This document shows, piece after piece, positions 9,001 through 53,100 of a stretch of 64,000 bases of DNA (the stretch's first letter is position 1; each line of letters opens with the position of its first letter). This DNA is from Mesaphorura yosii (lineage: Eukaryota > Arthropoda > Collembola > Poduromorpha > Tullbergiidae). Position numbers and translations under genes: made by a program. Below the pieces are notes generated by a model. The model made no database searches and was not told the DNA's origin. It saw nothing but the letters and a program-made list of their open reading frames with translations. The stretch spans positions 62,001 through 126,000 of the forward strand of contig WIXG01000076.1 in the NCBI GenBank assembly GCA_009869945.1, read 5' to 3'.

Positions 9001-12000
9001 GTGTATGCAATAAATGACTTCATGTCGGAGCACGGACACGAAGAGAGTCTGTTGCTGGGTGCACATTCCAAGTTTCCTCAACACCCGTCGTTGATGTTGC
9101 TGGATGCTCACGTTATTTTTAAACCTCTTTTAACAAGCATGGGGCTCATGCCGCAGCAAATAATTGGGTACAACTTCGACAACTGGGGTTCCCACATGTC
9201 AACGAGGGTATCGATTGAAGCCTTGAAAATTGACATCGTAGAAAGTGAAGGCAAAGGTGTGGGTCAAGGCAGCTTGAGAGGAAGGAAAACCGGAACACTT
9301 AACATCTCACACGAGACTCCAGCCTTTTTGTGTGAAAAAATCTCATTGGATGGAGATTTCCAGAAATCGACGGACATGTCGAGAGATACGATCAGCAAAC
9401 GGTCTGTGATCTACTTCTCCCGAAACTACTGGAAGAAGCAAGTGAAGAGTAGCTTGGTATTCTGCCTAAATATCGAGTACATATCACAGCAGGTAGATAA
9501 TTTAAAGTCACAAGCTTCATATAGCGCATCCACGTTTCACGAGTGTGCTCTTGGTTTCAGGTAAACATGCCGCTGCTTAGACTCTTGCACCAGATAACAA
9601 CTATGTACCAGAATGTCAGAGAAACGCAATTAGAACTGCGGGAGAGGAGACCCTCGGAAGCTACGAAGTCGAACTTGGCGCAAAAGAACAGTAGTTCGTC
9701 AGGGTCGGACATTCACGAGCCAGCCCGCGTGATATCTGAATCGAGAGAAATTGTGAAGCCAAAATTACGACCAGACGTCCCGTCCACCTCCGCCCAGGCC
9801 TCTGCAAATGACACCACCAATACTGCTTCAACACTTAAAGGCGCTACGGCCAGCCGTACACAAAGCTTTGCCCAACGTTTCAAGGCAGCCAATAAGTCAA
9901 GGGGACCGAAAATTATCGTGAACGGAACAGTCAAGAATTCAAGTGCTTCGCAAACTCCGACCTCGGTCAGAGGGACTGACTTTCCAGACGATAACAAATC
10001 GCCGCGCACGCCCCAAACGCCTGCAGTGTCCAACACTGGAAATCTCTCTCATCACAGTTGCTGGAAAACGATCTACTACTTGCTTGACCTGTATGCAACA
10101 CGCCCTGAAACCAAGACCGTGTTTAATGCCAGGTAAATTCTGTCCCAATTTTTTCGTGCGGCAAACATAAACACTCGATCATGTGAAGCAGGCCGTCAGC
10201 ATTGCTGGGAGACACTTCCGATGCTATTCAACAACGAAATACAAGAATAAACGCAGGAAGACTATTTGATGGCAGGGACCAGCTTGATGACATCGAAAAG
10301 GGTCTTGGCGAGGGCATTCAAGCGGCCTACGTGACCAGTTCCATGGAAAAACAAAAAGAAACCGGAGTTGAAATGCCAAGACTTTCAATCTTCGGAGTTG
10401 CCAAAATCCGAAGAACTCGACTTCTAGCTACGTTAAGTGGACTCAAGCTGGAAGCGGAAATAACCAATCTCCAGGCTTCCAGTGCGTTTAAAAAGAAGTT
10501 GCGTCCACCATCCATGGAATTGTCCCTGACCGGTCACGTTGGACAGACAATGATTGTGCTTCTGGAAGGACAGGCTCCAAGTCAACAGTATGTTGCCTCT
10601 CCCGAGTCCAGCGCTTGATTATTCGTCCGTACTTCTGTCTCAACTGATTGTTCTTGCTCTTATGTGTTTCAGAACCGTGGTGAAGATTTCTCTTTCCAGA
10701 CCTGACATTTTGTACTGCTACATGAGCAAACGATCTCGAGACAAAAACTGTGCCTTGCTAACGGTTGGCCCTATCAATATTGACATTCCGCAGCATCCAG
10801 TGGTTCTGCATGGAATGATGACGCGAAGTACCAAGCAACTTTCAAGTACATTGCAGGTAAGACCATTGAAAACTCTACCTCTAAGCGGTCTATGGCTCGA
10901 GTATTTAATGCGTTGCGCCGTGTAGGAATTCCGAGTGAACAGAACATCTAGTCGCATTTCCCGTGGAATGACATTTGACGAAGTCGACTTCAATGCCCAA
11001 ACAGCACACACGAATCAGTATTCCGCACCAAACTTCCCGGCAGAGAACAAAGAAAAGCCAGCTGAGACTCCATTCTTCCAGCCCCTGATAGTACAGTTCA
11101 ACATACTCGTTGAGGTAAGTCTTCATTTGGCCTGTGACTCTGGAGCAGTACGTGATAAAGTGTCTTGAACTGTTTCTTTCAGAGCCTGAGCGTGACTGCT
11201 TCGTTGCTACCTTCGCTTCAAGCACAATACAAAATGGAAGCCATCAAGGGATGTGGAATTACTGGAAATAAGGCCAACTTCAAAGTCAATCTCCCGACTC
11301 ATAATCTTAGTTTTACAACAAAATTAACTGTAAGTGCACAACATTGTGATCTTCGGGATATGAATACTGTATGAGGGTGAAACTGTTGCAGGTAGCCGAG
11401 GCAAATCTGCCGTCTGCGGCGAGCATATCTCTTCCTGAAATCGACGTTGCAGCTGAATTTGTTCAGGACAGTAAAGGCCCGTCAGATCTGGGCCACAATG
11501 ATGGATTAGTTGTTCGCCGTGGGACATATCTCAGTTCAACAGCAAACATTGGTGCATTTGAGCACTGTCTAACAACGGACTTGCTAAACCACTTAGTGTT
11601 TGTGCAAAAGGTTGGGAATTGCATGACCAGCTCCTTTTCGTGAAAGATGAAATGAAACTTGATGTTGGTTTCTACCAGGTCTTCATGAAGGAAGTAAACG
11701 AAGTAGTATTCAAGATGAGTGGCGGTGACAAACCAGTTCCGCTTTGGGATGAGGAAAGCACGAGCCCCTTCAGAAATCTCTTGTTCACACTGGCCGTAAA
11801 GCTAAAGGTGCGTTTATAATACTAATCGTAAATCTTACAGAGCAGTTTGTAACATTACATGATCTCGTTTTGAAGGGCATTCAAATAACAGCAACGACTC
11901 CCACCAATACAGCCATGAGGCTAGAAACTGGACCCCTTGAGTTTCGAGTTAGCAACAGGGATCACGTGAAATCTCAAACTGGGGGCAAGTTTGTTGCCGT

Positions 12001-15000
12001 TAATGCGTCGTCGAACCATTACCAAAATGAGCCTGACCTTATACAAAGTCGGGTCTTCCTGAGGGCCAGTGTGGACGTGAACCTGAGCCTAGGGCAGCTC
12101 ATCCGCAACATGGTGTTTGAAGAAGCTGAATCAGATTATCAGCAGTATGCGTTCTTTAAAACTCACATTGGTATGTCAGGCATTAAGCCATCTGCTATAC
12201 AGCTTTGACCGAGCCAAATGATATTTATCCATGTCGAATCTAGATCTCAGAAACACATTCACCGAAGAGACCAACACAATTGACGATGCCGACAAGGAAG
12301 TGATTCTGATTGCTCTCACCAAGCCGTTGATTTACGTACAGCCTGTCGCTGTGGACAAGGCCATTTTAGTATGGCTCAATTATAAGAACGCTTATGAATA
12401 TTGGAATGAACAGAGGAGTTCACTGAACACTGAGGTTTTGGCTGCTACCCACTTTCAAATGGTAAGCAGGCGACATGTACTGCGATCCGCCCCGTATCTG
12501 TTTCGGGATGTGGTGGTACTAAGCTGATGCGTTGGTTAATAGGCAATGGACAGAGTGCAGCAGCCCACCATTCTAACCGAACAGTCAAGCATACTGTTTC
12601 TTCAGTTGACGGTCGAGGACATGGGAATTTCTATTCCTCTGAATCCTTCACCACACGTAAACTGGCACTTCATAACCAGCCGGAGACTGGACTCCCAGGC
12701 CTGAAATCCTTAGTACATGTTTTTGCTTATATAATTTGCAGATCTGGACCGGGCGCATAGAAGAGAACCGAGGTGCGGTGGTAGTCACACTGGACAGTAC
12801 AAGTATTTCTGCTTGCAGCTCTGGCTCACTTGTGGTAAGTAATATTCAGCACCTTCCTTATGGATATTCTGCCAGTAATTGTATCTGACACATATATGTT
12901 CGGTTCATACAGAGCACAGGAAAATTCACGGGTCTGTGCTTCCGCTTCTCGGAAGACATCATGGTGACAATGGATGACTGGAAGCCAAACCTGACTGACC
13001 CGAACGTGTTGAACTTTTGTGTTGTGTCGGAAGGGACTTACGAAGTCTGCTCAAGAACGAATTCCCAAAACCAGCTGCAAGGTAAGTCATTTGAGACAAT
13101 ATAACAACGTCGCATTCAGTAATTGCACCGTAACGTACTCCTCCAGATAACGCAAGTGCAAAATGGTTCCTGAACGTCAAATGGTCGATGGAAGGAGTTG
13201 ATATGCATGTGGATGTCAATGTTGGGAAACAACTGTCTGCGTTGGGCCACACGTTGACAACTCTTGCAGCTTTCGAAGAGGAAGATGAAAACACGTCGTA
13301 TCAGGGCAATATGCTAAACACTTCCCAAGACCTGCCAGATTTTGGTGATGAGAGACCAGGACGATCTCAGTCACAGGTGAGATCTACACAGCAAACACCA
13401 ATCGTAGTGTTAATGCTAACATTGTCCTTTAAATGTCCCATTCAGGAGTTCGTAGTAATGAGACGACATAAGAGCCAAGGCGCGGAAGCCACACCCGGTG
13501 AGTTAAAGCAGAAGCGAAACCAACTAGAAAAGGAAATGCAGGAACGAGCGAGCTTCATTGAGGAGCTACAAAAGACGGGTGCATCTGAAGACGTCATTGA
13601 AGATGAAAGAAAGAAATTGCAAGAACTTGAAAACGTGGCCTTTAAGGTGAGAAAACATTTAATTTCGCTGGACAAGCAGACTTTCTGTATTCTCACGATG
13701 TGTTTTCACTTCACAGGATTTCAGAAGAGATTGGATCAAGAAGCTTCGCCGTCAGAGTTCAAAAGCTACAAGCATAAGGGACAAGTTTGGGCTGGGCCCG
13801 AGCAAGTCTCCTCACTTGAGGTCAAAATCGTTCATTGAATCCTCACCCGTGAAGGACTCACCGAATCCAGTAATGAGGTAATGTAAACGACCATTTTGGC
13901 GGCATTCACACGCAAAATACTCATCTTTAACTAGTTTAGAGGTCAGGTGGTGAGTAGGCATGTGCCAATTGCGGCATTTTGAGTATTCGTTGCACTAGTC
14001 TTATTACACTGTAACTGGAATTCAACCTGATTTGTGTGGTTCGTTTGCTAGTTCGTTGCCAAAGCATGACTCAATCAGTCTCTATTGTAGTTAACGCAAC
14101 AAATTAGGATGGTTTAACATGGGCTTTTAGTTTGCCTCATGTCTCGTTTAGCCAAATAGCTTAGTCGCGTTTGTCCATGTACCTGTAGCTTTGGGTGGCT
14201 TGTTTGCGCTTATCCATCAGTTTGGAGCAGTAGATCAGAATGCTTTGATTGTGCATCTGCGTGATCTGAGGAAAGTTCAATGAAAACCTTCATGTGCTTA
14301 TGGGAAACTACTTTATTATGTCTTATAGCCCTGTTGAAATTGCTCCTTCGCCGAGCACAGAGAGCTCACCAAGGGAGGGACCGTCGAGGTCTACTTCACT
14401 CCGGTTTAATAGGTCTAAGCAAAGGGTGACTTTCGGAGAGACCCAGCGGTATTTCACTTTACCAGTTACCTTGGTTTTGTTGGATGTAGCGTAGATGAGA
14501 GCCTTGTGCTTGGTTTTTTCGTTGTACAAAACCCGTTTTCAGTGTCCATTTCCGTACATAACACATGTTCGTCGACAATCCCCTTTCAATGGAATGCTAG
14601 CGTCTATAGTTTGCGCAATTTTCTTTCCACCGTAAGCGTATCGTGGACGGTTGTTTCTTTGAGTTTGTTTTTTACGCGTAATTATGAAAACATGCGCCTA
14701 ATGCGAGTATCTGTATCACTTCAGGCAATATTCGGTGGAGAGTGCAAGCGTGACTACTCCGGAAGACGATGATGAAGAAATGGAAGTGTGGCTTGACCAG
14801 AATCCCAACAAACAAGGGTACTGTGCTTCGACGGTTTGAGAGCTGTTGTGACAGACGGGCTGTGGAGTAATGCTTGACTCGTACTTTCACAGAGACGGGT
14901 TGACTCCAGGCAGTTCAATGTCCCATAAAGCGCTCGAGCCGAACGTGGATTTGGAGCTGGATGTGAAGGTGTTCATAAACAGTGGCAAGTGCGTCCTGCA

Positions 15001-18000: not shown

Positions 18001-19555
18001 TTAATCCATTTCCGGCCACGGGAACAGTATTGGGCGGAACAATGGATCTTCATGGCAATAACATATCCTTAGCATGTTTTCACGGAGTTAATTTCAAAGC
18101 TAAAAGTTGGGCCCTGTTCAGTTTGAAAGAGCCTTTCATCTCGTTCTCAACAGAAGCCCAAGAAACTCATTCTCAAGGCAAGGCATCTAATTAATCAAGA
18201 TTACGATTACGCTTGTTATTCCATTAATAATGAACATTTTGATGCCTACATTGCAGATTCAGGTGGAGTTCATGTCGTCCAAAACTTGAACTTTTCTCTT
18301 GGGCAAAATAGTCAGCAAACTTTGACAATAAGCAATGCACCACACGAGAGTATGGCCATGGTGTGCCGGATTACAAGAAACGTCATGTTCCCTCCACAAT
18401 TCAGGACACTGAATGAATGGTTCCACTATGCATTCGCACCTGGTGAAATCGATGGTGAGTGCACTTTTCGATGTCAACAATATTCTGGAAATTGGGAAGT
18501 CACGGCATGCCTTTCATTTCATTAATTTTCAATACCTTTCATTAATTTCTTGCAGATGTGCAACGGTTTCCAAGTTTGGAGAGGGAACGAGAGAGGTCGG
18601 ATGTGCCCGGTCGTTCTGTGGGAAGGCTTCATGATCCAAACCACAACCGAGAAGTAATATTTGCCTTGCCGTCCATGGAATTATTTTTTAAGACTGAACA
18701 TTTACAAGCAGTTAAAACAATCAGTATAGCAGGTAAGTGTTAGTGAGGATATACAGACATACATGATTTGAGAAGGAACTGGACAGTCAGATTCTGCTAT
18801 TATACTGTTATCACAACTGTATATTGTTTTGTAGAAATATTAGATAGACCAGAAGTTATATGCAGCTTCATAACCGAGTTTGCCGATCATATCTTCGTGA
18901 CGGTTGACGCCGAAGCGTTTTTCTTCTTGCACGATCTTATCACCTCATATATTAGGGAAAAGGACAAACTGGTAACATTACATCTATAAGCCATATGGGG
19001 ACATATGAGCGCAAAAAATATGAAGTTTTGATAAATAGGTGTCGGCTCAGTTGGCGGCTGGCAGAAGTCAAACTGGCGCGACATTAGAAGACAGAGAAGC
19101 TCAGATGCCAAGTACTTCTATGATGGAGTCAGAGGCCGGTCATCTGGACAAGAGCACGGCAACTTCAGTCATAACAACAGTATCCACATTAGAAGAGTCC
19201 GCATTCCAGAGAGACCCGAGAAATTACCATTGCAAGACCTGGCAACTGGAGCCGACTGTCAGGTTTGTGTGGAATGGAAGTATTCACCAAGCTGTTGAGT
19301 CGGTTTATTCATTCAATTCCTCCAACTTACAGGCTACTGTCTTGGGCTGGCAAGAGTATCGAGCCATATGGTGTTGACTACATCCTTCATAAGCTGGGCT
19401 TTTCTCACGCGAGGATAACAATACCAAAATGGATGCAAAGGGGCTTTATGGACCCACTTGATAAAATTTTATCACTGCTAGTCTTTCGTATGATAGATTT
19501 AGCTAAGAGCGATCAGCAGAAGCAGAAGCACGATGAAAATCGAGCTATTAAGTGA
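1..19555 (+). CDS. BLTP1: BLTP1 / tweek / KIAA1109 orthologue, 5'-truncated by window edge (70 exons)
   Basis: Bridge-like lipid transfer protein 1: family members form a long hydrophobic groove (repeating beta-groove fold) that moves phospholipid between membranes at contact sites, anchored in the ER by an N-terminal membrane segment. Here 70 exons splice in one open frame of about 4,655 codons ending in TGA at 19553-19555. The human protein is about 5,000 residues, so roughly the first 200-350, including the membrane anchor, lie upstream of the window. Recognised family blocks include GRLVFGN and EPPRLMGEGF-like segments near the start (exons 2-3), WGIDIKCGKGTDFSYGPWADRQR across exons 4-5 (recognised in part), LTTDLLNHLVFVQKVFMKEVNEV across exons 41-42 (recognised in part), the ILAFPKAWYRRS block in exon 59, and the C-terminal GVDYILHKLGF and PKWMQRGFMDPLDK. 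A Lys/Glu-rich coiled coil is in exon 49. No frameshift or premature stop was seen. Confidence 0.97.
13878..14328 (+). other. Long BLTP1 intron (451 bp)
   Basis: This intron separates the exon ending in the DFRRDW...KLRR block from the exon carrying the KQRVTFGE segment. It is several times longer than nearly all other introns of the gene; the next one, 14449-14724, is 276 bp. I looked for a cassette exon in the compatible phase: the acceptor-like site before 14221 opens directly onto an in-frame stop. I saw no foldback structure, only short inverted motifs. Regulatory content is possible but nothing specific is visible. Confidence 0.6.
18178..18256 (+). other. GC-AG intron in BLTP1
   Basis: The exon ends ...TCTCAAG and the intron begins GCAAGG, the usual context of the rare GC donor class, and ends TTGCAG at 18256. 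Reading joins as G|AT, giving Asp in the same frame, and the alignment to the family continues without a gap. No GT donor in the neighbourhood keeps the frame, because an in-frame TAA follows at about 18192. Confidence 0.8.
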
Positions 19556-20738: not shown

Positions 20739-23700
20739 TCAAATGGTCCACACTTGTACCTTCTCAACTATGCACCACCAGTGTGCGTGGTCATAATATG
20801 AAGAGATTACATGCAAATTTTGCACGTACTTTTCGATCAGTTTGTCCAGTTCACCCTCGCGAAACACGTGATAGTATCTGTGGTAGGTCAAGAGCGCCGA
20901 GTCCTCCGTGTCCTCGGTTCCGGTGAACCAAGTCTTGGACGGGTCCAACCTCTTGACACTCTCCGCGCTTCCGCTACTCCCTGCCTTCTGGCTAGATGGC
21001 ACGGGTAGTGTGATGAGTGACGGGTACGACGACTTGTGGTGGGTGGAGGAAGAGTTTGTCAAGGAAGACTTGGCGGAGGTCCACGAATCGAACGAGTCCC
21101 CGCCCCGAATTGAACAGGAGCAAGTTGAGGACATGCGGATACTCGAGTCCAACGAAGGGTTTCGGGACGGCTGCTGTTTGCCAGTCAAGTTCTCGATGGA
21201 GTCGAATAATGACTCTTTCTCTTCAAACTCCTCAGAAGTTTTGGCTGCCGCTACCGAATCGGAAGAGGAGTATGATGCGGTGTCGCAACTGGCACCCTGC
21301 TGAGCCTCGTCTTCGAACTTTGTGTGCGGCGACTCGTCTGTGATGCTCGCGGGCCATTTTGCGTCGGGACCTTTCTGCTGGAACTTCTTCACTTCGCCAA
21401 ACAACATTTTCTCGCCGGACGTCCGTCTTTCGGGCGTTATGCGCTTGGAATGCTGATTGTCTGTGTGTAAAATGTCGGACGGCAAAGAGTGCAACCACTC
21501 CGACGTGTTTCCGAACCTGGACATTGTGTTTTTAGGCCGAGCTTTGGGACTTGAGGTCGAGGCCAGGTTGTCGAATGATGATGACAATATCTTGCCGCTT
21601 CGTTCTTCGGTTTTGGGTTGGGGTAAACTTTCTCCGCCAGACTCGTCCTCATTCTTTTCATTATCTGACTCGATGAGCACCGGCAACTTGCTGCAAGGTT
21701 CAAAGTGCATTGACGACACCTTGTCGGTTTCAGTCCCCGTTGAAGCCTGTTGATATGGCTGTGGAGGTGGTTTCTCTTTCACTTGATCGGAAAAGAACAA
21801 AGGCCCTGCATGTTCCTTCGAAGTATCTTTGGAATCCTCCGACTCGGTTAAGGCTGTTGAAATTTGTTGTGCGCTTTCTTCGTTCAGGACACTGACCACG
21901 CTGCTCACAGAGTTTGGCGAGGACGAAGAAGTGTCCGAAGTGTCGACGTCGTCCGTTTCAGGGTTGAACAACTCCAAGGCCAGTTCTTTCGGCAGACTTC
22001 GTCGAACTTGCTGTCTCGTTAATATAGTTTTGGTTTCAGATACAACGCCTGGCTTCCGGAGCACGACGATCTTTTCAATCTTCTCGCTCTGACGCTTTGT
22101 GCTTTTTAATGGAGTGCTGGAGGATTCGACGGTTGCTGCTGTGTCGTCACTGATTACGGTTAGCACGGCTTTTGAAGACGATACCTGCGGTGGATCTGTG
22201 CTAAGTGAAGACTTTGTGAGCGGTCCCTGAGGCTCCGTATGTTGTTGTGGCTGAGGAGAAGTGGACGTCTTTTCCTTCTGAAGGAGAACTGAACTTGTTT
22301 CTTCAAAGACAAATTTGACTTCAGGCTCCTCAGGCCTTGCGTCGTACGGCATACTAACACCAGCAGGTGGAATGGGGAATCTTGTTGGGCTCACATCGGG
22401 ACTCTTTCTGCGACCGTACAGTTCGGACGCTAACGGTGAAGGGCTCTTCGGAGTATTGTAGTTTGGCGGTGAAAGTTTGGAGGCTGGTGATTTTGGCGAT
22501 CTGTCCGAGTCGGTACTGTTAGCACGTGTGTCACTGTTGAAGAAGCAGTTGTCGTTCGCGGTTACAGAATTCTCGTCCACCCTCGGAATGAAGATGACTG
22601 ACGCGAAGCTGTCCTCGGAATCGACGCTCGTGTCACTCTGGAAGCTGGAATCTTTCGAACTATCAGAGCCTTCCTCTCTGGACAGTTTCCGAACATGTCG
22701 TACACCGGGAATGAGCTTCCCGCTTCCATTGCCATTCTCGTGGCCAAGTTCATTTTCAGAGGGTCGTCGCTTCAGGTAAGGGGGCGATGTGAGCGGACTC
22801 ATAGACATACTTCCGTCGTTCTTGCCAACGTTTAGCGAGCCAACTGAACTCCGTCGCAAGAAGAAGGGCGGGAAGAGTCCGCGTCGTTGCACTCCTTCCT
22901 TCGACCCACGACGCAGCAACGAGCCGTTTCCAACTCCGTTGTCAGCCTCGGTGTTCTCGTCTGTGGTTTTCCAGTTTTTGAGCATTCGCACGAATCCGTT
23001 CCGGATTGAACTACCGCCCTGCATGACTTGCTTCACTGTGGGATGACTGGGCGAAGAAATCGGCTCGTAGATTCCAGAGTTGGTGTTGGCGCCGCTGGTG
23101 CCGTTTTCTGACGGCTCGGAGCTTCTGAACCTGTTACTAAGGTTGGTTTTCAGTAACTGAATGCGCTTCACGTTCGAATGGTTGAAGAAAGCTTCCTTCA
23201 TCTGATCCCATCGCGTGTTCTCTCTCCTTGTGTAGATAAGTTCCTCGTTGAGCGAGCACTGCTTCTGGATATTTTGCCTCAGTTTCTCTTTTTCCTTAAG
23301 CCGCTCCGTGAAAATAAGGTCTTCGTTCAGGGAAGTTTGCTTCCAGATGGAGGAGAGTCCGTGGTTGACGCGAAGCGACTGATCAGGAGGCCGCAGAGTG
23401 CTACTTTTAAACTCGGGTAAGTTTTTGACAGACTGCTGGATATCCTTCCAGCATGCGCCATCCGACGAGAACTGTTCGGAGGGAGGAAGCTGAGTGAAGG
23501 TGTCGTCGTTGCGGTCGATCGCCTCGTAGCTTGTATTGCTAAGCAGTGATATCCTGTGTTCCAAAAAACCGCTATCATTGTCACTCGCGCTCGGATGCGG
23601 AGGACTGGAACCGAGTGACTGCTTCTGCTTGACCAGCACTGGTCTTCCCCCCGCTCTCTCTTTCTCAATCCCAGCACTCGTGCTTGGAACCGCGTTGGAG

Positions 23701-26513
23701 GTTTCAATCGAGGCTGAGAAAGTGCTGGAGTCGGAGTCCAGCTTGATTATAATCTTGGTGTCATTTGAACTATTCATACTGATTTCCAGCGACTCGAAAC
23801 TGTCTGTCTGCACCGCTTTGTGACGCACAAAGTCCGGGAACTGAACATTCGGGTCATCGGGGGAGAAATTTTCTGAAAGACTTGGCGGTGGCTCAACCAT
23901 ACCGGCGGCACTGGTGCAAGGTTTGTGCGCTGAGTTGCTGCCATTATTGTGAGTGCTCCGCCTGAAATGTTCGATGGGGTTTTTGCTTCCTCGGAAGAAG
24001 GATATCGGAATCATGCCCAAGAGGTCGCTTAAGCTTTTCGATTTAGGCTGCACGTCAATGGTATTGGCCGACTGCTGGATTCCACACGTCGTCTCGAGCG
24101 TGCGTCGTCTGAAATCACCCCCAAGTTCTAAATACTAATCTCAAACGACCAGGCGTTAAGCAATTATGATTACCTTGTCGGGTTCAAAGCATTCGACAGG
24201 AGAAATCTACTATGAGTTGAATCCTGCAACTGAAGCAGTTCTGCAAATTCGGTGGATTCGAGCTGTCTCAGCTCGATGGGCATGAAGTCCTCCAAATTGT
24301 CGTCGTTTCCCGCCGCAAATGGCTCGTTCAGCTCGTCCTGGTCTTCGAAGCCTTGCAAGAACCAAGGCGTCCGGCCTCCACGGTTCCTCTTTGTGCCGGC
24401 CAATTTCTGCGTAAAATCATCAACATTGGAATCGTTTCATCGATACACCTGCCGTGCTTGTAGGTACAATTCATGCAATCGAAAAATGACCAACACGAAA
24501 ACGGGATGTGTCTCACTCAAAGTATATGTGCGTTTTACCTGCAACGCTCTCCGCACGAAACTGTAGCAAGATTCGTTTGGACTGGATAGATCGGAGCTGC
24601 TATGTGAACTGCTTGGATAGTGAGGATCAATAGATCGTCCGCGGTGCCGTACTTTTCCTGCACGTCTTCTGCATTCTCGACTACGTGAAAGTAAAAAAAT
24701 TACTTCAGCACGTAGTCAAAGGTATTGGCTTAAAATGCTTGAGAGCCTCTGCATCGGCACCCCGGTAGTCTCACGATTGCATTATCCTCCTGCTCTTATT
24801 ATCTGCTAATTTCCATTGCAATCAGATTCTAATTCTAGACTTGTTTTACCTTAACGAGGGAAATGAGTCCGAGTCCGAGGTTTGCGTGTAAGCATGGTAA
24901 TGGGTGACATCGTCGTCCGACGTGGTCGTCGTCGTAGAATTCAGATCACGTTCAATTGACGAGGTTTTATCGTCGCTGCTGGAAAGCGTTGGTTTGTTCC
25001 AGGGAACAAGAACATCTTGCGAGTCAAACTGTGAACGTCAAAACGAACACATTCGAGTAACCTGAAGTGGCTACTTGCCTTACGATGGCGCATTGCGATT
25101 GCATTCACCTTTCTGTGTCGCTGTTCCATCGCCCAGACAGAGACCATGAGTTTGCCACCGATTCGCAGCACTCGCGACAACTCTTTGAGTGCCTCCACTC
25201 GCCGTTCCATTGTCGCAAAATGATGAATGACAGCCACGGAGAGTACGGCATCAAAACATTCGTCCCGAAATGGCAGCGTCAAATTGTCACAGACGAGGAC
25301 CTGCATTCGATGGTGAAAGGGTCATTTCGTGATATTTGCACAACTTCATTTTGGTTCGTTACTCTGAGCCCTGACATGGCTGTCTGTCGTATGTCGTTCG
25401 GTGACAAATAAACTCGTACCACGAGAATAATGGACTAAAGAGGACACCGCGACCGATGCTGGACAAAGAAAGGTCTTAACTTCTAGTAAGGCAGACAGGT
25501 CGTATGCATTGCTCTGGGGAACTAGAGACAATTTATGGCTTTACCTCGTGTTCCTTCTCACGGGCAATGCTGGTGAGGTTCACACAATGATCAAGCCCAA
25601 TTTTGTAGATGTTTGGATTCACATCCAAATACTTCCCGTTTCCACAGCCTGCAACCAATAACAAGTAGATAACCACGGGCGTAATTTCAGTGTTTACGCG
25701 GCTGCGGTATGCTCTGTAAGCTATGACGCATGCGGAGCGAGATGTTTATTGATCCATTTATTATTATTGCTTGATTTATTATTCAAAATCATTAGCCAAG
25801 TACGGACGGCAGTGACTGCAGTCGACAGCCTCTTTCGCCTTGTTGCTAACTCATTTATTAATTTATCCGGTTCATGCGTTTAACCGAATAACTTTTCTAC
25901 TTGGCGAAAACTGAAAAACAACAGCGCGACTCGGCAAGTGCGTTAAGGCGCACGCAAGTATTCTAAATCTACCAGGCCTACATTTATCGCCGATAGCTAG
26001 AGCGTTGTCTGTGTCGGTGAAGAAGAGGACTCGCGTGGGCTGGCAGTAATCCGTGTGTGGGTTTCAGATCAACAAAATACAAATGTCAATGAGGATTACA
26101 ATACACTTCTTGTATTGAAATCTGCAAAGTACGTTTGTCCATTTGTAGTGTAATAAAATCTCGCAACTCTTTGCCATCCGTTGTTGTGAATTGTATCAAC
26201 AGTAATTTGAGCCGAAGACACACGCTTTGAAGTGCATTGTTCTCCAACCGCGCTGTCCAATAACTCTGCTGCCTTTCATTGTTTACTTACCAACGTCACA
26301 AACGACAGATCCAGGCTCCAAATCCAGCAGGAACTGTTTCACCCTTGGCCAAATTCGGTGCCTGGGATCGTTGAAATGGGACGCAATCTGCTGGTACACG
26401 TCGTGCACGTACGCCTTCTCCAGTGCAATAGACCGGGCTTCGCGCTCCTTGCTCGAGGTACAGTCGTCCAGTTTGACGGAGTTGATGCTCGTTGAACTCC
26501 ATACTGTTTCCAT
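20739..26513 (-). CDS. TRMT9B: TRMT9B (KIAA1456 / fire dancer) orthologue, tRNA-methyltransferase-like protein
   Basis: Trm9/ALKBH8-family SAM-dependent methyltransferase. Trm9 and ALKBH8 methylate wobble uridines in tRNA; the fly orthologue acts at synapses, and its reaction is less clear. Seven exons: 26291-26513, 25545-25648, 25109-25300, 24850-25028, 24539-24680, 24174-24406, 20739-24108, joining in frame to 1,480 codons. The start at 26513 is the first ATG, with an in-frame TAA just upstream. Residues 35-80 match the family (YVHDVYQQIA, WPRVKQFL), SAM motif I DVGCGNGKYL is at 73-82, LPFRDECFDAVLS...IHHF at 118-137, and QDVLVPW near 177. The last 45 residues carry YYHVFREGEL, the conserved tail. 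Human TRMT9B is about 450 residues; the excess is the Ser/Thr/Pro-rich, probably disordered region on the last exon. Confidence 0.93.
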
Positions 26514-29500
26514 TGTCCACTGACAGTCTTAGCACCTGCGGTTGACGATGAGCGTTGAAGCATTCCTGCATAAATGAAACTATCTGTGTCGGAACACATC
26601 GGCAGCCTTACTCGTATGACCTTTTTATGGCTCAAGCTCGATTTCACGGAAATGAAATGAGAGAAATTAATTTAATTTCAGAATACGGAAGCCTTTATGC
26701 ACTCGCTCACTTTGAGAGCAAGAAGTACGAAGTTTCCAAGCTTAATCACAAAACAGTAATTAAATATGCGGCTTTGTTTGCGTGTGTATGAGGACTATAG
26801 ATGGCGGCTCTGAAAGTTATTCCCACTTGTCAGTTCACAGCATACCGCTTTTACATAATTGAAGAAGAATTGCATGCAACTAGTGCAATTTTCATTCCGA
26901 GAAAAGTCCTTTTAATGTGTGCTTATAGCAATGAAAGAGATATAAAAGCACGTTTGCGAATTCTTTGATCCTTGTAAGCTCGAGGATCGAGCCCTATTGT
27001 TCCATTCAACTTTTATCTTGACTGGAACAGTGAACCGTTCAATTTCCCACTGTCGATGCAAAAAAAAATCGAGGCTCAGCCGTTTCACTCCAATTCACTC
27101 GGCGTTTATTTGCAAAACACAATTCACAATTGCATTTATTACTTCCTTCTTTCATGTTTAACAAAACGGGCCAACCTTAAGATTGGTTCAAGGTCAGAAT
27201 CAAAGCAGAGCGCTTCACTCTCATTCGCCTTGCAAAGTGCCTAATTCGTTATCATGTAGAATATGCCACCCTTTGATTGAAGATGAGATAGCATTTAGCT
27301 GAAGGCTTATCTGGCAACATGAAAGATAAACTGAGAAGTTCGAAACTAGAAAGGGGAATGTTATGCAGGCGAAGTATCCAAGTATCTGTGGTCTTAAAGA
27401 AATATCCGTGCTTCGGATAAATTACATGAAAAACACGTCAAAAAAAGATCTTTGCTGGAGGACTTAAGCCTTCCAAACAATTTCTTTGCCCTAACAGGCC
27501 CGCCGCTGATTTTGGCTTCCAGCGCTTACCAGCGCTCCGATTTCTCGGTTTCTGCGTGGGTTTCCACATTGTTTGAGATACTTCACTTCGTTTTCGGCGC
27601 ACCTGCCTTCTTTATGGACTCGAAAACGCGAAAGTTTTGGAGGTTATTTTCCTCTCTTTGAGAAAGAAATAAAGCTGTCCATACCCTGTACTAATGTAAT
27701 TCTCCGTAATTTTATATTGTAAAGAAAATTATGGATATTTTCTTTGGAAAACATGACGAGTCGCAAATTAAATTTACCTCAGACTTGATGTGCATCAATG
27801 TGCAAGCATTATTGAGTTTAGTACGAAAGATTTCTTTTTTGTACCAAGAAACAAAGGCGACAAATTGCTTGCTGTACATAAAGCGGCACTAAAATGCTAA
27901 CTTTATTACCAGACCTGAAACGAAAATCTTTTGTGGCGCACGCATACGTGTCGTTCGTTTGGTAGCAAACATTGAGCTCATAAATTCGCAGGCATAAAGC
28001 GAGTGGATTGGTTATAATTCCACCACCAAACACCTTTGTTAGCTTGACCCTTCACATTCGCAATTTCGCTTTAGAACTTTAATTTCGTTGTTGTGCTTCT
28101 TTGCATCTGGAAAAGGATTATGAAGGCTTTGATAAATCTGCTCGTAAACCAAAACTGCCGTCCTGCTGCCTGCTCCCAAATTGATTTTCATTGCATATGT
28201 AAAGCCATCGTTTGTGTTTTTGAGAACCCAGCAATGGGACAAAGTGTCAGTTACAGGCCTGATAATTTAAAGGCCACGCGTTAATATTCTGTCGAAAGGC
28301 TGGCATTTCTGCAGTCGAAGAAAATGCTATGCCAGAATCGGATAATAAGACGAGAAAGTCAAGAATCAAACCGACTAACACGTCATGTCAAGAAAGAGAC
28401 TAAAGAAAGCGCTTACCCCGTAATCTTCACATTATGTTGTTTTTCAAAGCGTGAAATTCAGCCAGTCTCGTCCTAGTAATTAAACCCGTCACCAAGCATA
28501 AGAAACAGGGCAGTGTAAACACTTACTATGCTACTACGAAATGAAATGTGAAAAGGAGTGAATGAGCGAGTATGACAGAGTTGAGTTCACAGTAGATTTC
28601 AAAACACAGACTTAATATTTGCCAGCGAGGGCAATCACTGATCTCGACATGGCCATGATAAGAATGACATGAAAAAGAGACACAAGACAAAATGCAACTT
28701 TTATTCGCTACGATGACATGAATATCACAGACGACTTCAAAGTGCTCACTTATCACTCTCACCCAATTGTGCCTTATCAATGACTTTATGACATTAATAA
28801 GAACTGATTGGTTTGTACTTCTATATGCCTCAAACTGATTCTTATCTGCATTTCCTAGCAGACTGGAATTTCTCGCAGCCTAAGTTACGAGCTATGCAAT
28901 CTCGTCTGCTTCATGCAAAACTGGGAAGAAAGACTGGGCTAAAGATGTGGAAATAATACACCTATCGGTGACGGTATTGTTACATTTGTACTACGAGAAC
29001 AGTGAATGGATTCTAGGACCGTGCACGTACTTTCTCTTGCAAAACATCAGTTCAGATCCGCACTCAAATGTGTGTGAAAGAAAGTCGGACAGTCATGCGC
29101 CTTCACCGCCTTCGCTAAGCCTACTTCTGGCAAGTCGATATTGGAACTCACTGCGTAAGCGAAACGGGAATGTGTTCACTGCTTTTCCCTTCCAATCTCC
29201 GGGCTACCTACGTCAGCAGGCTTGCAATGGGTCTGATACGTTCTACAGGAACCAGCAAGCAACCTTTCCTGTTCTCGGATTTGTTTTTATAACAATGCAA
29301 CTTACTACGAATCCAGTACTGCGAGACGGAGAAGACGAATCAAAACTTATGCTGGAGAACTGTTACTCAGCTGCAATTGCAAAACCAGGACACTAATCCT
29401 TCTCCTTGCAGGTGCCTGGAGCTCAGCTTAAGCGATAGTATCGCTTTAGTAGTGCAGGGTATCATCAAAAAGGCGACAATTAAAGTGACAGTGACAATTG

Positions 29501-30898
29501 CAACCATTATAGCACAAGCGATCGAAATGCATAAAATGCAATATTGCATAAATTAATATACGCATTATTGCAAAAATAAGCAGCATAGAAATAGTTCGCC
29601 TGTTCCCAAACTGACGAAACCGCGACATAGCCCAAATATGAGGCCTTCTGAGTTCTGACGCCAGTGTCACGAAACGGTCTGTACCGGTTTTTGTCCTAAA
29701 CCACAAAAGTCTCAAATTCAATTGCAGGAAATAAGAATTGCTCCTTATGAAATTTATTTTTTCCTTAACTGTGGCACGCTTCGGCGGCGTCTTCTGCAAG
29801 TTAACCGATCGCACAAAGATTTCCTGGAATGCGTAAAAATGCACATCACATAAAAGTGACTGCCTCGTCTGCAGGAGCGAGTGTGAATTAGTCAAGACGC
29901 TGACTATCTGATCTGAAACCCCCCGACTGGGTCTCAAACGTTCGGGACCTCTGCTGTCCCATGCACGTCATATGCAGCAAAGTGGTGAAATTGTTGACCA
30001 ACACTCCTCTTGCAAGCGAGAATAAGATGCATGCTGCTTCGGATACAGGCAGGAGCTCTTGAATTAATGTGGGCACACCAATTGATCTCAAATTATCAGG
30101 GGTAGGTGGCAGGAAGCAGAACTTTAGACCACGAGCCCTAGATGAAGAGACCCGTGAGGCTTTATCCAAGCAATGAGTAAATGAAGGAATCTAATTCGGG
30201 CATGATCCAGGAATTCTTGGCCCACTGTTATTCTCGTAAGACTGTTTAAGTAATACATGACAAGTTTTATTTACTCTTAAACGAGCATTAGTGCACAATG
30301 TAGAATAGCCGTGCTTACTTAATAATACATGAGCTTAATCTTACGCCTTCTATATGAAATATTTTCGGAAAAGAGATCATGGCGTTACGTTTTCCTAGAA
30401 CACGTGTCTGTCTGATGAATGAATGCAGATTTAACTTAAATCATAACCGCAAGAATTAAGATTAATGAAATAAAGAACCACAGTTTGTTACACGCACATC
30501 GTACACGAAAAATTCTACTTCTTTAGCATTAAATGCTACGCTAAATTGTAAAGTTAAGCTTTAAACATGTGTTTATCTATGCGCACGACCGACTCTAAAT
30601 ACAATGTAATGCTGATCCTTCGCAAATTGCTCATTGCAAGTCCAGATCAGAATAAAATTCAGTCCCTCAATATTTACAGCGGTCCTTTGCAACAAAATGA
30701 CTCCTCTGACAGACATTCTCCGGCTGACTTGCTGGAGTTGTTCAAGGAAGTTACGAAACTACGAGTTATAAAAATAAAGTAAACCACACAATTCTCAAGT
30801 GATGATTAGATGAAAGGAACAATCGATAACATGTCAAAGATCATGAACGTGAATGTGAAGAACATTCGGTCAGCTATGCCAAACTAATCAGACGGGGT
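26514..30898. other. Gene-free stretch between TRMT9B and the insulin-like gene
   Basis: It must contain the TRMT9B promoter/5' UTR and the insulin-like 3' UTR. A possible 3' splice site (CAACCGCAG) lies about 33 bases before the TRMT9B start, so a non-coding first exon is plausible. TTTATT at 30266-30271 is a candidate poly(A) signal for the insulin-like gene. ORFs of up to 163 codons occur (29446-29937 minus, 28947-29396 plus), but none has a recognisable domain, and ORFs of that size are expected by chance. Two short perfect palindromes (29430-29446 and 29537-29550) are visible. Nothing else was recognised. Confidence 0.5.
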
Positions 30899-31539
30899 TT
30901 AAGCGCTTCTGTTGGAGGATCCAGATCGTCGTGAGCTCCCGCAGTACTTGACCATTTCCATCGCAGTGCAGGGTTTCTTGCAGCATTCGTCGATTATGGT
31001 GCGTCGAAAACGCTGGTGGGCTGCACTCTCAGTCAGGATTTTAAAAGCCAGGGATTTTCCGTTGTGTGGCCACATCAAGTCAATGTCGTTCAAAGTGCTG
31101 TCCGTATCCCAGAAGCTGTCTGCAGAGTTATAATTGTCCGAAGAAAGGTCAATTGCGTTACTGTTGGCGTCATTGTCATAAGCTCCTAAACCAGCTGGAA
31201 GCAAATATTTAGAGAGGGATTAGGCAAGGGACGACCAGTTGAACGATTGCGGCAGAAACTGGTCTTACTTGTGAGAGTTGGATCTGAGCGCCTACTCAGC
31301 GGTGCGTAGGTGTTTCCTTTGCAGAGATTTCGAATGGCATCAACGAGTCGAGTCCCGCAGTACTGGACACTGCGCCTCACGTGAACTGGAGCGTGGGCCC
31401 AATACTGAGTTCCAAGATCTGAGTAGAGTTCCTGCTGGGGGCTGACAGCTCTCTCCAACGAGGCAGCGGAGGAAAATGTTAAAGTTGCAACAATAATCAG
31501 TACAGTTGCGCCATTGCACGAACCTTTCATTACGGCCAT
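30899..31539 (-). CDS. ILP: Insulin-like peptide precursor
   Basis: Secreted insulin-superfamily prohormone, expected to signal through a receptor tyrosine kinase. Two exons, 31269-31539 and 30899-31194, encode 188 residues, with a phase-1 intron inside the C-peptide, the conserved intron position of insulin genes. A hydrophobic signal peptide covers residues 1-26. After an N-terminal pro-segment, RR at 55-56 precedes the B chain (CGTRLVDAIRNLC, Cys 61 and 73, 11 residues apart). RR at 83-84 ends the B chain. An acidic C-peptide follows, then RFRR at 152-155, a furin-like site. The A chain IIDECCKKPC...YC has Cys 161, 162, 166 and 175 in the canonical CC-X3-C-X8-C spacing. A 13-residue tail with RR follows the last Cys. 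Met1 or Met4 could be the start. Predicted bonds by homology: 61-162, 73-175, 161-166. Confidence 0.93.
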
Positions 31540-31570
31540 TTTCGTTTATTCTGGAAGCTGCAAGAAAAGT
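31540..31570 (-). promoter_or_regulatory. Probable 5'-UTR splice acceptor of the insulin-like gene
   Basis: On the minus strand a pyrimidine-rich tract runs into TTTTCTTGCAG, ending at 31558, 18 bases before the start codon. This looks like a true 3' splice site, so the coding exon probably begins at 31557 and the promoter lies farther upstream behind a non-coding exon. Insulin genes commonly have such a 5'-UTR intron. The first exon was not located. Confidence 0.5.
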
Positions 31571-35526: not shown

Positions 35527-38500
35527 CTAAAACCTTCCCCGACCTCGCGACCTGCCACGCCCTCTTCCACGGCCGCGCCCACGACCGCGACCACGTCCTC
35601 GACCACGCGATTGTCCTTGAGTGACGACTTTCTTTTCCACGAACGGTTTGAACTCTTCAGTGCAATATATGCAGCCTTTCTTTTCACCTTGGTCGACTTT
35701 TTGAGGCAGTTCGACGGAAACATACTGTGAGCCACACGACTCGCATGTCTCATCTTCCAAGACGGTCAGCTTTCTTGAGCCCTTGAAACCAATCATATCA
35801 GTGAAAAATTAATTCTGATACGACAGTAAAAAATATACTACCTCGAAAACCGTAATAAACACGTCACACCTATGAAAAAAGTTACCAATGAAAATAAAAT
35901 AGAACATTAGTAGATTTATCTCCGTAAGGATAACTCACACGTTGCAAGCTATCTTCCATTTTGGACCAGACGCAGGATCTAGGACCAACAGCCCATCATC
36001 ACATTCTCCACAGTATGAGATGCCTTTCTTGAACGTGCTGAACGCACAAGTTGGATGAGGACAATTATTGCAGCCGGCACCTTTTTTCATATTGCTGTAT
36101 TAAAGTTCAGACCTTGTTAGCTTATACTAACAAACAAGAATTAAATGCAAATAGTTATTCAAGCCTTACGGAAACGGTGGATTATTTATGCAATACGGGC
36201 AAAAGGTAAAACTTTTAGCTTTCACTCCTCCATTCCATGCAACTAATTCAAAGTTATCCAGTGGACAACGCAGATCGTTAAAGGCTCGAAGACTTCCATT
36301 TTGGGGCACATTGTAAGTATCATTACACACTGCACAGTGCAAACGGTTGACATTGAACGACACGAGCTTCATGTACCTGTGGCACTTCCCACACCTGCAA
36401 TACAAATGCTTTCAGATTCGGGCAGAAATCAAGTACTAGACAATTTAATTTGCTACCACTCACCTCGAAAATGGTTTCCCACCATCAGCTGATTGAGAGA
36501 ACGAGACTTCGAAAAGCTCGTCCATTATTGTGATGGAAGACACAAAGTAGAGATATTTGGCTTTAAAGATTGTTAAGGCATGTTCGACAACTTGCGTCAA
36601 TTGCGCTTGACCTAAAAATAAATTTAAATGAGCAAAATCTTTTGCACAATAGGAAAATAAACTAATCTTCTTAAAATGTAGAACCTTTCGCAATTAATTC
36701 AAGCTGCTTTTCAATCCCGGATCTCATTGTAGGCATCACGAGTTCTGGATCAATCTAATAATGGAGTAGGTACACAGATAAGGAGTGTTCTAAGCTAAGG
36801 AAAATTTATGGCCATCTTTTAAAAGCTACCTTCAAATACCCGTGCACTAATATGATTCCCAAATTTGTGGGGGCAAGTTTTCGTCCGGGAAGCAGGGTTA
36901 CGTAATTTCTTTGGCAAATATTGTTTATGTGAACAGGAATCGAAGCATCTGAATAAAATGACAAATTGAATGTCACGGAGTAGTAGTTTTACAGTTTCTT
37001 TAATACACAGTATTGACCTAAATTGTACCTGTTCCAATTCCATGCTTCTCCATGAGAGAAATTAGTTCAGATTCTGTCAGGTAGTCCGGAGGTTTTGTCT
37101 CAGATTGTACTACCTTCCTCTACAAACGAATCATGCATAATGTGTAAAATGCCGTGGCTTATCAATTGGGCGTGAATACCTCAACAACTGGGTAGTTCAT
37201 GTTGACAATCACGTCAGGAATCACTTCACTGCTAGAGATGACATTGAATGGGTACACTTCTGTGAACCCCGCCTGCAGAATTTGCTTTCCTTGAAATGTA
37301 AAAATCTCGTTTTGAATTTTGAATGAGATGGTTGTCTCCAAATATGTGCAATCAGCTGTGACCTACGGCAGATCACAACATGCAATGATAAAAGAAAAGG
37401 AAACGATTCAATATTGAAGATGCAACCGAACAACTTACCGTCGAAATGAAGTACCTGACGATGAACTCATATAATTTAGTAGCATCTGAATCATAAAATG
37501 TGCTGGAGGATGTAGCTATGACGGGAGTTATTGGCGAATGATCTCCGGCATCATGACCTTTCAAAGGTGGGACGATCTCATTCCATTTCACGTACTGGCG
37601 GTACTCGTCGTGATTACTGAATTTGCTTAGCAAAGGCCTACGAACAAAAGGAATTTGAGTTCTGGTACAAATGCTTAATTAGTTTAAAGTTTAGTAATAC
37701 TCACTTAATCTCAAAGTTTTCCGGGTACTGAGTTGTTTCTGTTCTCGGATAACTTATATAGCCTTGAGTGTAAAGTCTTTCTGCAACCTGCATCGTGTGG
37801 TGTGGAGACATCCCGAGTTTGGAAGACGCCATCCTCAGGAGCTCTACCGTATTTAGTCCAACCGGTCGCTTTTTCGTACACTCTTTCTTCTTGACGCTGG
37901 TCACACTAAAATGAAAAATGCACAAAATTAGATACTCCTAGGAAGTTAAAAATGCTGACAATTACTATTGTACTTACCATGCCGTCTTGCTCTCATTAAT
38001 GCAGTCAAGAAAATGTTCTACCGCCTGCTTGTCAAATAATCGAGTTCTTCCCCACTCCAATGCGATTTCACTGCCATCACCGAGACGAACAGAAACCTGA
38101 GGAATATTTGTTTCGCTAAACTGCTTTGATTTGATTGCCCATGCACTCACCTTTAAATACCAAAACGGCTCAGGTACGAATTCTTGTATGAAATCATGAC
38201 GTTTGACACAAAATCCCAACGTAGGAGTTTGACAAGGACCATAGGAAACCAGCTCGGAATCTAGCTTTCCGTATTTTCCCTGTAAAACAAATTGCGAAAT
38301 TTAATGAATGGCCCGACATTTTTGCTCGTTCCACAATGAACATTGTCTTCTTCAATATCTATCATTGAATATCAAAATATTCCCAGAGTCTCTCATAAAG
38401 TTAAAAGTGAGGTTGTAGCAGAATGGTTCATAGTTCTTACCCGAAACACCTTTGTCTGAAATCTTGTAAACGCGCATCCTATTCTGAGATCAAGTTCTTG

Positions 38501-50100: not shown

Positions 50101-53100
50101 GTGATATTCCAGGTTGAATGCGTCGTAGTCGTAGCGCTTATGACTCAAATAATTGGTAGAAGACGAGCCATGGCCTCATTAAAACCCCGCGTAGACGAAA
50201 GCAGCTGGATCGATAGGAAAGCACTTCGGGGGCTTATCTCATTAAAGAAAAGATTCTTTGCCCGCTTTCGCTCCGTCTGAGTTCCCGTAAATACTTTCAA
50301 GCAAATTTGAAGCTTGCGATAACAGTGGAATTTTCGTAAAATGAATTTACTTTTACGTTGTAAGCAAGATTGGATTTTTGTCGCATTCCAGAGGCGAGAT
50401 TTCAAGTTAAGGGTGAATTAAGATTGAGTGTAAAAAATCATTCATATTTGGAATTAAGCATTTGGTAGTTTGGAGTAAGTCCACATATCGCATTGTTATT
50501 TGCGGAAAACTTTAAACAAGTTCATATTCGGTGGAAATGCGCATACGTGACACCCCAAAGCACTTGCGGATTTGTTTGTTGACTCAGCGTTTTTATATTC
50601 CATTTCGGGAAGAATGCACAAAAGGTCCAACAAACGAAATATAAGACGGCAAAGTTCTTTTCGTTGTAGCTTTTATCTTTTGCATCGCTTTTTGCTTCGA
50701 GAAAAGCTGCACGCCTTTTCATTTCCTGGTCTCCAGCATATTCTCTCGTGTTACATCAACTTTTCCTGTCTGATTGTTGGCTGCGCCCATGTATTTGTTC
50801 TATCGACTGAGTATCGTTGTCTTGGCCGAGCTGGCTGAAGCAACATCTTCAACTCTTGAGTGAAGTAATAAATACTAAAATGCGCAAGAAACACAGTTTT
50901 ATGGCAGAGAGAATTGTCATGTCACAAAATTCAAGACAAAGTTATGCAAATCGAGACAAAATTTGCGTGAACAATCCGCTGGGTCAGCACGACTGGAGAA
51001 AGTAAATACTTTTTGGACGTGTAGTCGACGAGTCAGCAGTTTCGTGTCTCAGCTCGTCTCCCCACGCAGAATGGAGTCTTAATGCATTTCTTGGCGGCGG
51101 TGGCTGAGTAAATGTGAAAAGAATGTTCTGGTTGAGTAAATACGAAGGAGCAATGCAAATATTTATGGAAATAAGCTTAGCTTGAACGATTCAATAATGC
51201 TCCCCAAACCTCAAATATTTAATTTTACGAAATGGAAAACTGGAAACAAAATTTCCAGAGGCATTCTCTCACGTGAGCATTACGTGTTAGCAGTTTCTTA
51301 GGTTCTCATGCTGTCGCATAGCCACATCTCCCCGACTGGAACGATTAATTGGTAGCTTCAGCTTTCTCCGCAAATCCTACATTGATTGAGTCCGGAGCTG
51401 TCGTCCTGCCCTGCCACGGTTGCTTGAGTGAGTTTATGAGACAAATTGTATTGTGTGCCGCTGGCAGGGAATATTTAAACCAATTTACGTACTTCGTCTT
51501 GTCAACGTAAGGATTAGAGAGCAAGGCGAAAATCCTTCTGGCGTTGTATTTACTTTGCGTCTAAAATATTGCATCCAAGGCACCTTCTCCATCAACGACT
51601 CCATATAATCCGAGTTTATGAAAGGGATTAATTTGTACAGCCTTCACTGTACACATTCACGAGCGCATGTTGCGAATCTATATAAAAAATGGAATCAGAT
51701 ATGAAGCTCCTTCGCTAACACTGACAGATGTCTGTTGATACCAATTCCATCATGTTCCCGGAAACTGTTAAAAATTAATAGGTCCTGGAAGATTGGTTAC
51801 TTTCATGTTCCATTCAAAGTATTCGGAAAGTTGAAGTAAGGTCGAGGGTGATTGGAACGCCAAGAGGTAGGAACCCTCCGTTAGGAATCCTGGTTCAGGA
51901 TTGATAAAATCACACTTCGGTCCCGGTTCAGCGAAGGCGCCACGACCGGAGTAACCGAATAGTAAGAGTACATTCGTTGATTAATCAAAATTTACTGCGA
52001 TAGTTTATGACCTGAAAATCAGAATTTAATCATGCTACATCTTTTTAGGTCTTGTCATAAACATAAAACCTGCGATGATTGGATATCTCGTCATATTTTG
52101 CATGTTGAGGTTACGAGTTTTCGAGGAAAGAGAGTTGCATGGGCTGCATAACCAACTTAGTATTCATAATCTTTGACCTATCCCGTCATATCTTCTGCTT
52201 GACTAGCACAAGCTCAGTATCTAAGTACATCATGAGTTTGAATGCTAAGCTGATGGCTGATTCTTTTCATCTTTCACTTGTGTCTGGGTATAACACAGAG
52301 GGTAACGAAACAGGTAACAACAGAAAGCGCTTCCTACTTTATTTCTCCATGGAAGATAATCGGATTCAAGATCACTCTTTTCTTTTCTTCCTTTCATGAG
52401 AGGTTTTGAGTTTTTCATTCCACACTCTTTGTAATGCAGTGAATCAGTACTTCGATGTTCCCTTTCATGTTGTCATCTATTCAGTTTGCATACCTGCTTG
52501 AAGTTTTCCCGACTTGTGATATTAAAGCACTTTTTCTCCTAAGCGAAAATGGAGTCAAAGGAGTATTTATATGTTGGCCACACAACATCTATTCAGTGAT
52601 GTCTGAAGAATTTTTCCGCACACATTTAGGCCCAATGCAAAAATTTAGATATGCTTTGGTAAAATTTCACTACGAGAAGACAAATGGTCAATTCCGCTTC
52701 TCGGTTGCATCGGCTGGTTGGTTACGACTCGACGATGGACATATTCGATTCCTCGCCAGTATGGTCTCTTCCCCCTTGGTTCTTTGAACAAATTGCTTAA
52801 ATTGCAAGTACAAAAGACCACTTTGAAAGAAGTCATAAAATTTATTTGAGGGTAATTCGAAACCAGGCTTTGCTCTTAAGGTAATGAGACGAAAGGATTT
52901 TTTATGTTATTAATCTCGTCGCGTCAATTTAGAGCCCACATCTAATGAAAGCCCTGGAAATTGTTATCAAAAACGAGAGAAATAATGAAAGTTCCCATCT
53001 GAATAGGCTTATGATTAAATATTTTGTATTCGTCACTCTCTTTGCGTTGTTGTGCATGTACAACGTGTCATCCTCGTCGACTCTGAACCCAACAGATCTC

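Follow-up and report, generated by a model that had tools for sequence, protein, structure and literature searches.

The window, that is, the whole 64,000-nucleotide stretch of DNA analysed here, corresponds to positions 62001-126000 of contig C76 (C76:62001-126000) in an assembly of 93,006,257 bases and 1127 contigs. Reading of the strand and enumeration of donor and acceptor pairs show an insulin gene on the minus strand, from 31539 to 30899, in which two coding exons encode a preproinsulin of 188 residues. A second script gave the same exon limits, splice signals and intron phase. An earlier reading of the letters alone (the sequence-only reading) had proposed a 188-residue product with a phase-1 intron in the C-peptide, and both its coordinates and its count are correct by genomic splice enumeration. 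The features of the gene, from its upstream to its downstream end, are as follows.

31558..31568, minus strand: putative 3' splice acceptor that would end an intron in the 5' UTR, TTTTCTTGCAG, 18 bases before the ATG (suggested by the sequence)
31269..31539, minus strand: coding exon 1, with the leader, the N-terminal propeptide, the B chain and the start of the C-peptide (translation and splice enumeration)
31462..31539, minus strand: likely signal peptide, about residues 1-26, with an approximate cleavage site (hydropathy peak and small-residue sites)
31294..31371, minus strand: B chain, residues 57-82, C-X11-C, between RR 55-56 and RR 83-84 (Pfam match and residue scan)
31195..31268, minus strand: C-peptide intron of 74 bp, GT-AG, phase 1, CAA/GTAAGA ... 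TTCCAG/CT (predicted from the genomic sequence)
30899..31194, minus strand: coding exon 2, with the remaining C-peptide, the A chain, a short tail and the TAA stop (translation and splice enumeration)
30932..31000, minus strand: A chain, residues 156-178, CC-X3-C-X8-C, with RFRR before and RR after (Pfam match, motif and residue scan)
30266..30271, minus strand: possible polyadenylation signal AATAAA downstream of the stop, the only AATAAA between 30898 and 29801

The donor at 31268 is the sole GTAAG on the minus strand in the 800 bases scanned, and the acceptor at 31195 was picked for its pyrimidine tract; acceptors at 31186, 31120 and 31021 are likewise in frame with this donor. A phase-1 intron is described as characteristic of all insulin genes in the part of PMC8286064 drawn on here. 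The ATG lies at 31539. A good acceptor ends at 31558, and the upper bound given in the sequence-only reading, 31557, is the next base; an upstream non-coding exon is therefore likely. We did not find the 5' exon or the promoter of the window gene.

The product has a single strong hydrophobic stretch at its N-terminus, and the earlier claim of a signal peptide holds as a sequence feature. Over the 11 residues that start at residue 12, hydropathy peaks at 2.5, against at most 1.04 beyond residue 30, and candidate small-residue cleavage sites lie near residues 23-27 (from a reading of hydropathy and residue type). The cysteines are at positions 8, 61, 73, 161, 162, 166 and 175; Cys8 falls within the leader, and the mature chains contain only six. 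These six show the C-X11-C spacing of the B chain and the CC-X3-C-X8-C spacing of the A chain that had been described before. The dibasic processing sites are likewise present, as RR pairs at 55, 83, 154 and 179 that flank both chains on both sides, and a KK pair at 163 lies inside the A chain.

The insulin-family profile search that had been suggested as a check was run on the product. It matches the Pfam Insulin profile PF00049 with 42.9 bits (E 1e-10; cut-off 23 bits), from residue 59 to residue 175 and over profile positions 2-81 of 81. NCBIfam, a bacterial and archaeal library, gave no match for the product. A PDB sequence search with the product gave weak matches, the best row at E 0.013. 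Of the 29 rows, 25 are insulins, IGFs, bombyxin, a cone-snail insulin and Drosophila insulin-like peptides 1 and 2, and relaxin is absent among them. The four other rows are 'Toxin A' chains, one of them ranked third (E 0.02), which align with residues 46 to 113-129, covering the B chain and C-peptide, and which we take as chance. With a best row at E 0.013 and an unrelated protein at rank three, the PDB list alone proves little.

The frequency of the motifs by chance was estimated from 100 first-order Markov sequences of 64 kb each, generated with the dinucleotide frequencies of the window. The window contains a single A-chain motif (simulated mean 0.13, maximum 2) and a single case of that motif preceded within 900 bases by any C-X11-C (simulated mean 0.13, maximum 3). 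The conserved B motif occurs twice (simulated mean 0.3 in 100 simulations), and its second occurrence, at 52570-52644, looks like chance. Cysteine spacing alone is thus only moderately surprising, and the weight rests on the profile match. The A motif with a conserved B motif upstream occurs once in the window and in none of the 100 simulated sequences. This result bears on the view that the gene copy is degenerate or silent, or that the pattern arose by chance, which we regard as extremely improbable: the frame, splice sites, leader and six cysteines are intact, and the profile E value is 1e-10.

The genes around the insulin gene are as follows.

8980-9561, 11753-12205 and 19193-19552, plus strand: BLTP1-like exons
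24944-25321, minus strand: methyltransferase exon
36169-36411 and 37977-38300, minus strand: DNA topoisomerase 3-beta exons

These neighbours are ordinary animal genes, which argues against contamination or a viral origin. A single open frame of 1131 residues lies on the minus strand at 20742-24134; it is serine-rich and apparently disordered and has no Pfam match, and its C-terminal end presumably resembles a TRMT9B/ALKBH8-type tRNA methyltransferase. A PDB search with the frame at 26283-26528 lent no support, its one row (E 0.026) being unrelated. On the minus strand at 35567-35607 and 35527-35808 lies an Arg-Gly-rich repeat stretch with a 12-base unit, for which Pfam gave only a row below the cut-off; it may encode the C-terminal tail of topoisomerase 3-beta. 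No tRNA was found in the window by ARAGORN, and no Rfam family at the gathering threshold. Between 42000 and 64000, no Pfam match was found in the 8 frames tested of the 24 open frames of at least 100 residues that start there, so this region may be gene-poor or hold short exons.

The description of the peptide as an arthropod one agrees with the rest of the assembly. The Chitin_bind_4 and OS-D families are typical of arthropods, and the genome has 66 Chitin_bind_4 exon matches and four matches to OS-D chemosensory proteins, the latter clustered on contig C80 and two of them with stops read through. The distribution of these families suggests a mandibulate arthropod, perhaps a crustacean; a COX1 search gave no match. 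Searches of the genome for Col_cuticle_N (nematode), SL1 RNA and the insect 7tm_6 family gave no match, and the controls were silent too, so these results do not show absence. With this limit, a nematode origin finds no support, and the lack of 7tm_6 matches agrees with a crustacean.

Searches with PF00049 and with the window product, together with motif scans, revealed at least three further insulin-family genes in the same assembly. They lie in tandem on contig C108, on the minus strand, within about 7.2 kb.

Gene A, C108 68088-68712, minus strand: PF00049 32.0 bits
Gene B, C108 71911-72558, minus strand: PF00049 24.0 bits
Gene C, C108 73948-75287, minus strand: PF00049 33.2 bits

The genome total is thus at least four. 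Each of the three scores above the PF00049 cut-off of 23 bits and has a phase-1 intron between the B and A chains and the same cysteine code as the window gene. The search with the window product ranks gene A first, with 44% identity over 32 A-chain residues (E 5.5e-4), and gives gene C an E value of 0.0735; over the whole alignment, identity to the window gene is 30% for gene C, 26% for gene A and 20% for gene B. Weak matches on contigs C27 (E 2.06) and C85 (E 0.461) were rejected, since a scan of every frame there showed no A-chain motif and no conserved B-chain motif. The earlier identification of an insulin-family hormone gene is upheld by the PF00049 score well above the cut-off, the splice phase, and the three C108 paralogues, which share its cysteine code and have a phase-1 intron between the chains.

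Gene C is split into four coding exons by introns of phases 1, 2 and 0 and is C-terminally extended. Among PDB entries it matches IGF-I best (E 0.00088), and it resembles an IGF, with a layout as in arthropod IGF. Its last exon contains PTVLVPKY, which is reminiscent of, and one residue longer than, the arthropod IGF consensus GTVX1PX2(F/Y) as given in the portion of PMC7357564 used here. We infer from its sequence that gene B may be gonadulin-like, since it diverges strongly, a trait that the same portion of that article ascribes to gonadulins.

The window gene itself could also be an IGF of the arthropod kind with an overlooked C-terminal extension, or a crustacean insulin-like androgenic gland hormone, the animal being perhaps a crustacean. 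Such extensions are easily missed if a donor site is ignored, as the relevant passage of PMC7357564 points out. In the window gene, exon 2 reaches its stop codon 13 residues after the last cysteine, and the interval contains no GT, which argues against a GT-donor C-terminal extension of the arthropod-IGF kind and leaves room for unusual donors. Moreover, a distinct IGF-like gene with four exons is present on C108. Androgenic hormones often have more than six cysteines, whereas the mature chains of the window peptide have only that number. We therefore consider an IGF or an androgenic hormone at this locus very unlikely.

A further alternative is that the window gene encodes a relaxin/Dilp7-type or gonadulin-type ligand of a leucine-rich-repeat GPCR, since these other classes have the same cysteine code and belong to the same Pfam family. 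The B chain of vertebrate relaxin carries the receptor motif R-x3-R-x2-I/V. The window B chain, CGTRLVDAIRNLC, lacks these residues and has T, D and R at the corresponding positions, the motif being that of vertebrate relaxin and perhaps not that of arthropod relaxins. None of the 29 PDB rows is a relaxin; a separate and more divergent gonadulin-like gene (24.0 bits) is present on C108, and the C108 cluster and the window gene are on different contigs. In the trees of PMC7357564, as far as the portion used here describes them, arthropod insulin-family sequences vary widely and insulin and IGF are only partly apart by similarity, whereas gonadulins and relaxins stand well apart from the insulins. 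Taken together, a relaxin or gonadulin identity for the window gene seems unlikely. No relaxin-type gene was found in a motif scan of C108 50001-99900, nor in a whole-genome PF00049 search with E values up to 10, where all three matches were already known. The latter search missed the gonadulin-like gene B, so other divergent members, relaxin included, may be missed as well.

We thus read the window gene, with considerable confidence, as a functional arthropod gene encoding an insulin-type peptide of the neuroendocrine insulin class. This reading is based on the structure of the coding sequence, on the PF00049 match, on the three C108 paralogues and on an exon of an insulin receptor elsewhere in the genome. 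The last of these is an FnIII exon on contig C29, which matches a solved insulin receptor at E 8.5e-13 (one C29 frame compared). The genome also contains six matches to the Furin-like domain, four of them on contig C198 and one on contig C68, and these five we take, from their reading frames, to be EGF-receptor-like. The EGF-receptor-like stretch on C68 (L025 4743-5534) shows about 95% DNA identity with the end of C198 (L023) and lies beside a long different frame; it may be an allelic copy or stem from a recent partial duplication.

From the precursor and its family we infer the following route for the insulin-type peptide. The leader would direct the precursor into the secretory pathway, and three disulphides would form in the usual insulin arrangement. 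Cleavage by convertases at the RR pairs that flank each chain would free an N-terminal propeptide (about 28 residues), a C-peptide (about 67 residues) and a tail of 8 residues. The circulating two-chain hormone would then most likely, judging by its overall type, activate the insulin receptor tyrosine kinase, for which the genome has a gene at another locus, and would so regulate growth and metabolism.

The C108 cluster resembles the arthropod IGF-gonadulin-relaxin triplet described by Veenstra (2020, PMC7357564), to the extent that the part of the article used here covers it. In that part, cockroach, termite and stick insect are reported to have the three genes side by side with the IGF gene in the middle, and spiders to have two of the three next to each other; the corresponding part of PMC8286064 extends the arrangement to ambulacrarians. 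The window gene belongs to the same superfamily as the triplet genes so described and differs from them in having no C-terminal extension and in not being on the contig of the C108 cluster. In the cluster, the gonadulin-like gene B lies between A and C, so that either the order differs from that of the triplet or gene A is a later duplicate. One tentative interpretation, which we hold as possible rather than probable, is that the tandem cluster, present besides the unlinked window insulin gene, represents the ancient IGF-gonadulin-relaxin cluster in another lineage, with the order changed and the third place taken by a diverged relaxin or a new duplicate. The look at the literature was narrow, covering one open-access collection, and such a cluster may already be on record for crustaceans. 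The window gene is one more arthropod insulin in a well-known family and is useful mainly for annotation, and the C108 cluster is somewhat more interesting than the gene itself. Together they constitute an insulin-family inventory of a compact genome and offer one case for tracing the separation of the insulin, IGF and gonadulin genes of arthropods.

Compared to the insect neuroendocrine peptides (bombyxin and Drosophila insulin-like peptides 1 and 2), the window product has the same two-chain layout with six cysteines, a C-peptide between dibasic sites and a short C-terminus. It differs from them in the approximately 28 residues that lead from the leader to the B chain and end in RR, in the predicted cleavable tail of 8 residues, and in its low similarity, as seen in the weak PDB matches. 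The cysteine code is also that of vertebrate proinsulin, with which the B-chain core CG-x2-LV-(D/E)-A can be aligned, whereas the longer C-peptide (67 residues) and the extra N-terminal propeptide and tail set the window product apart from the usual vertebrate lengths.
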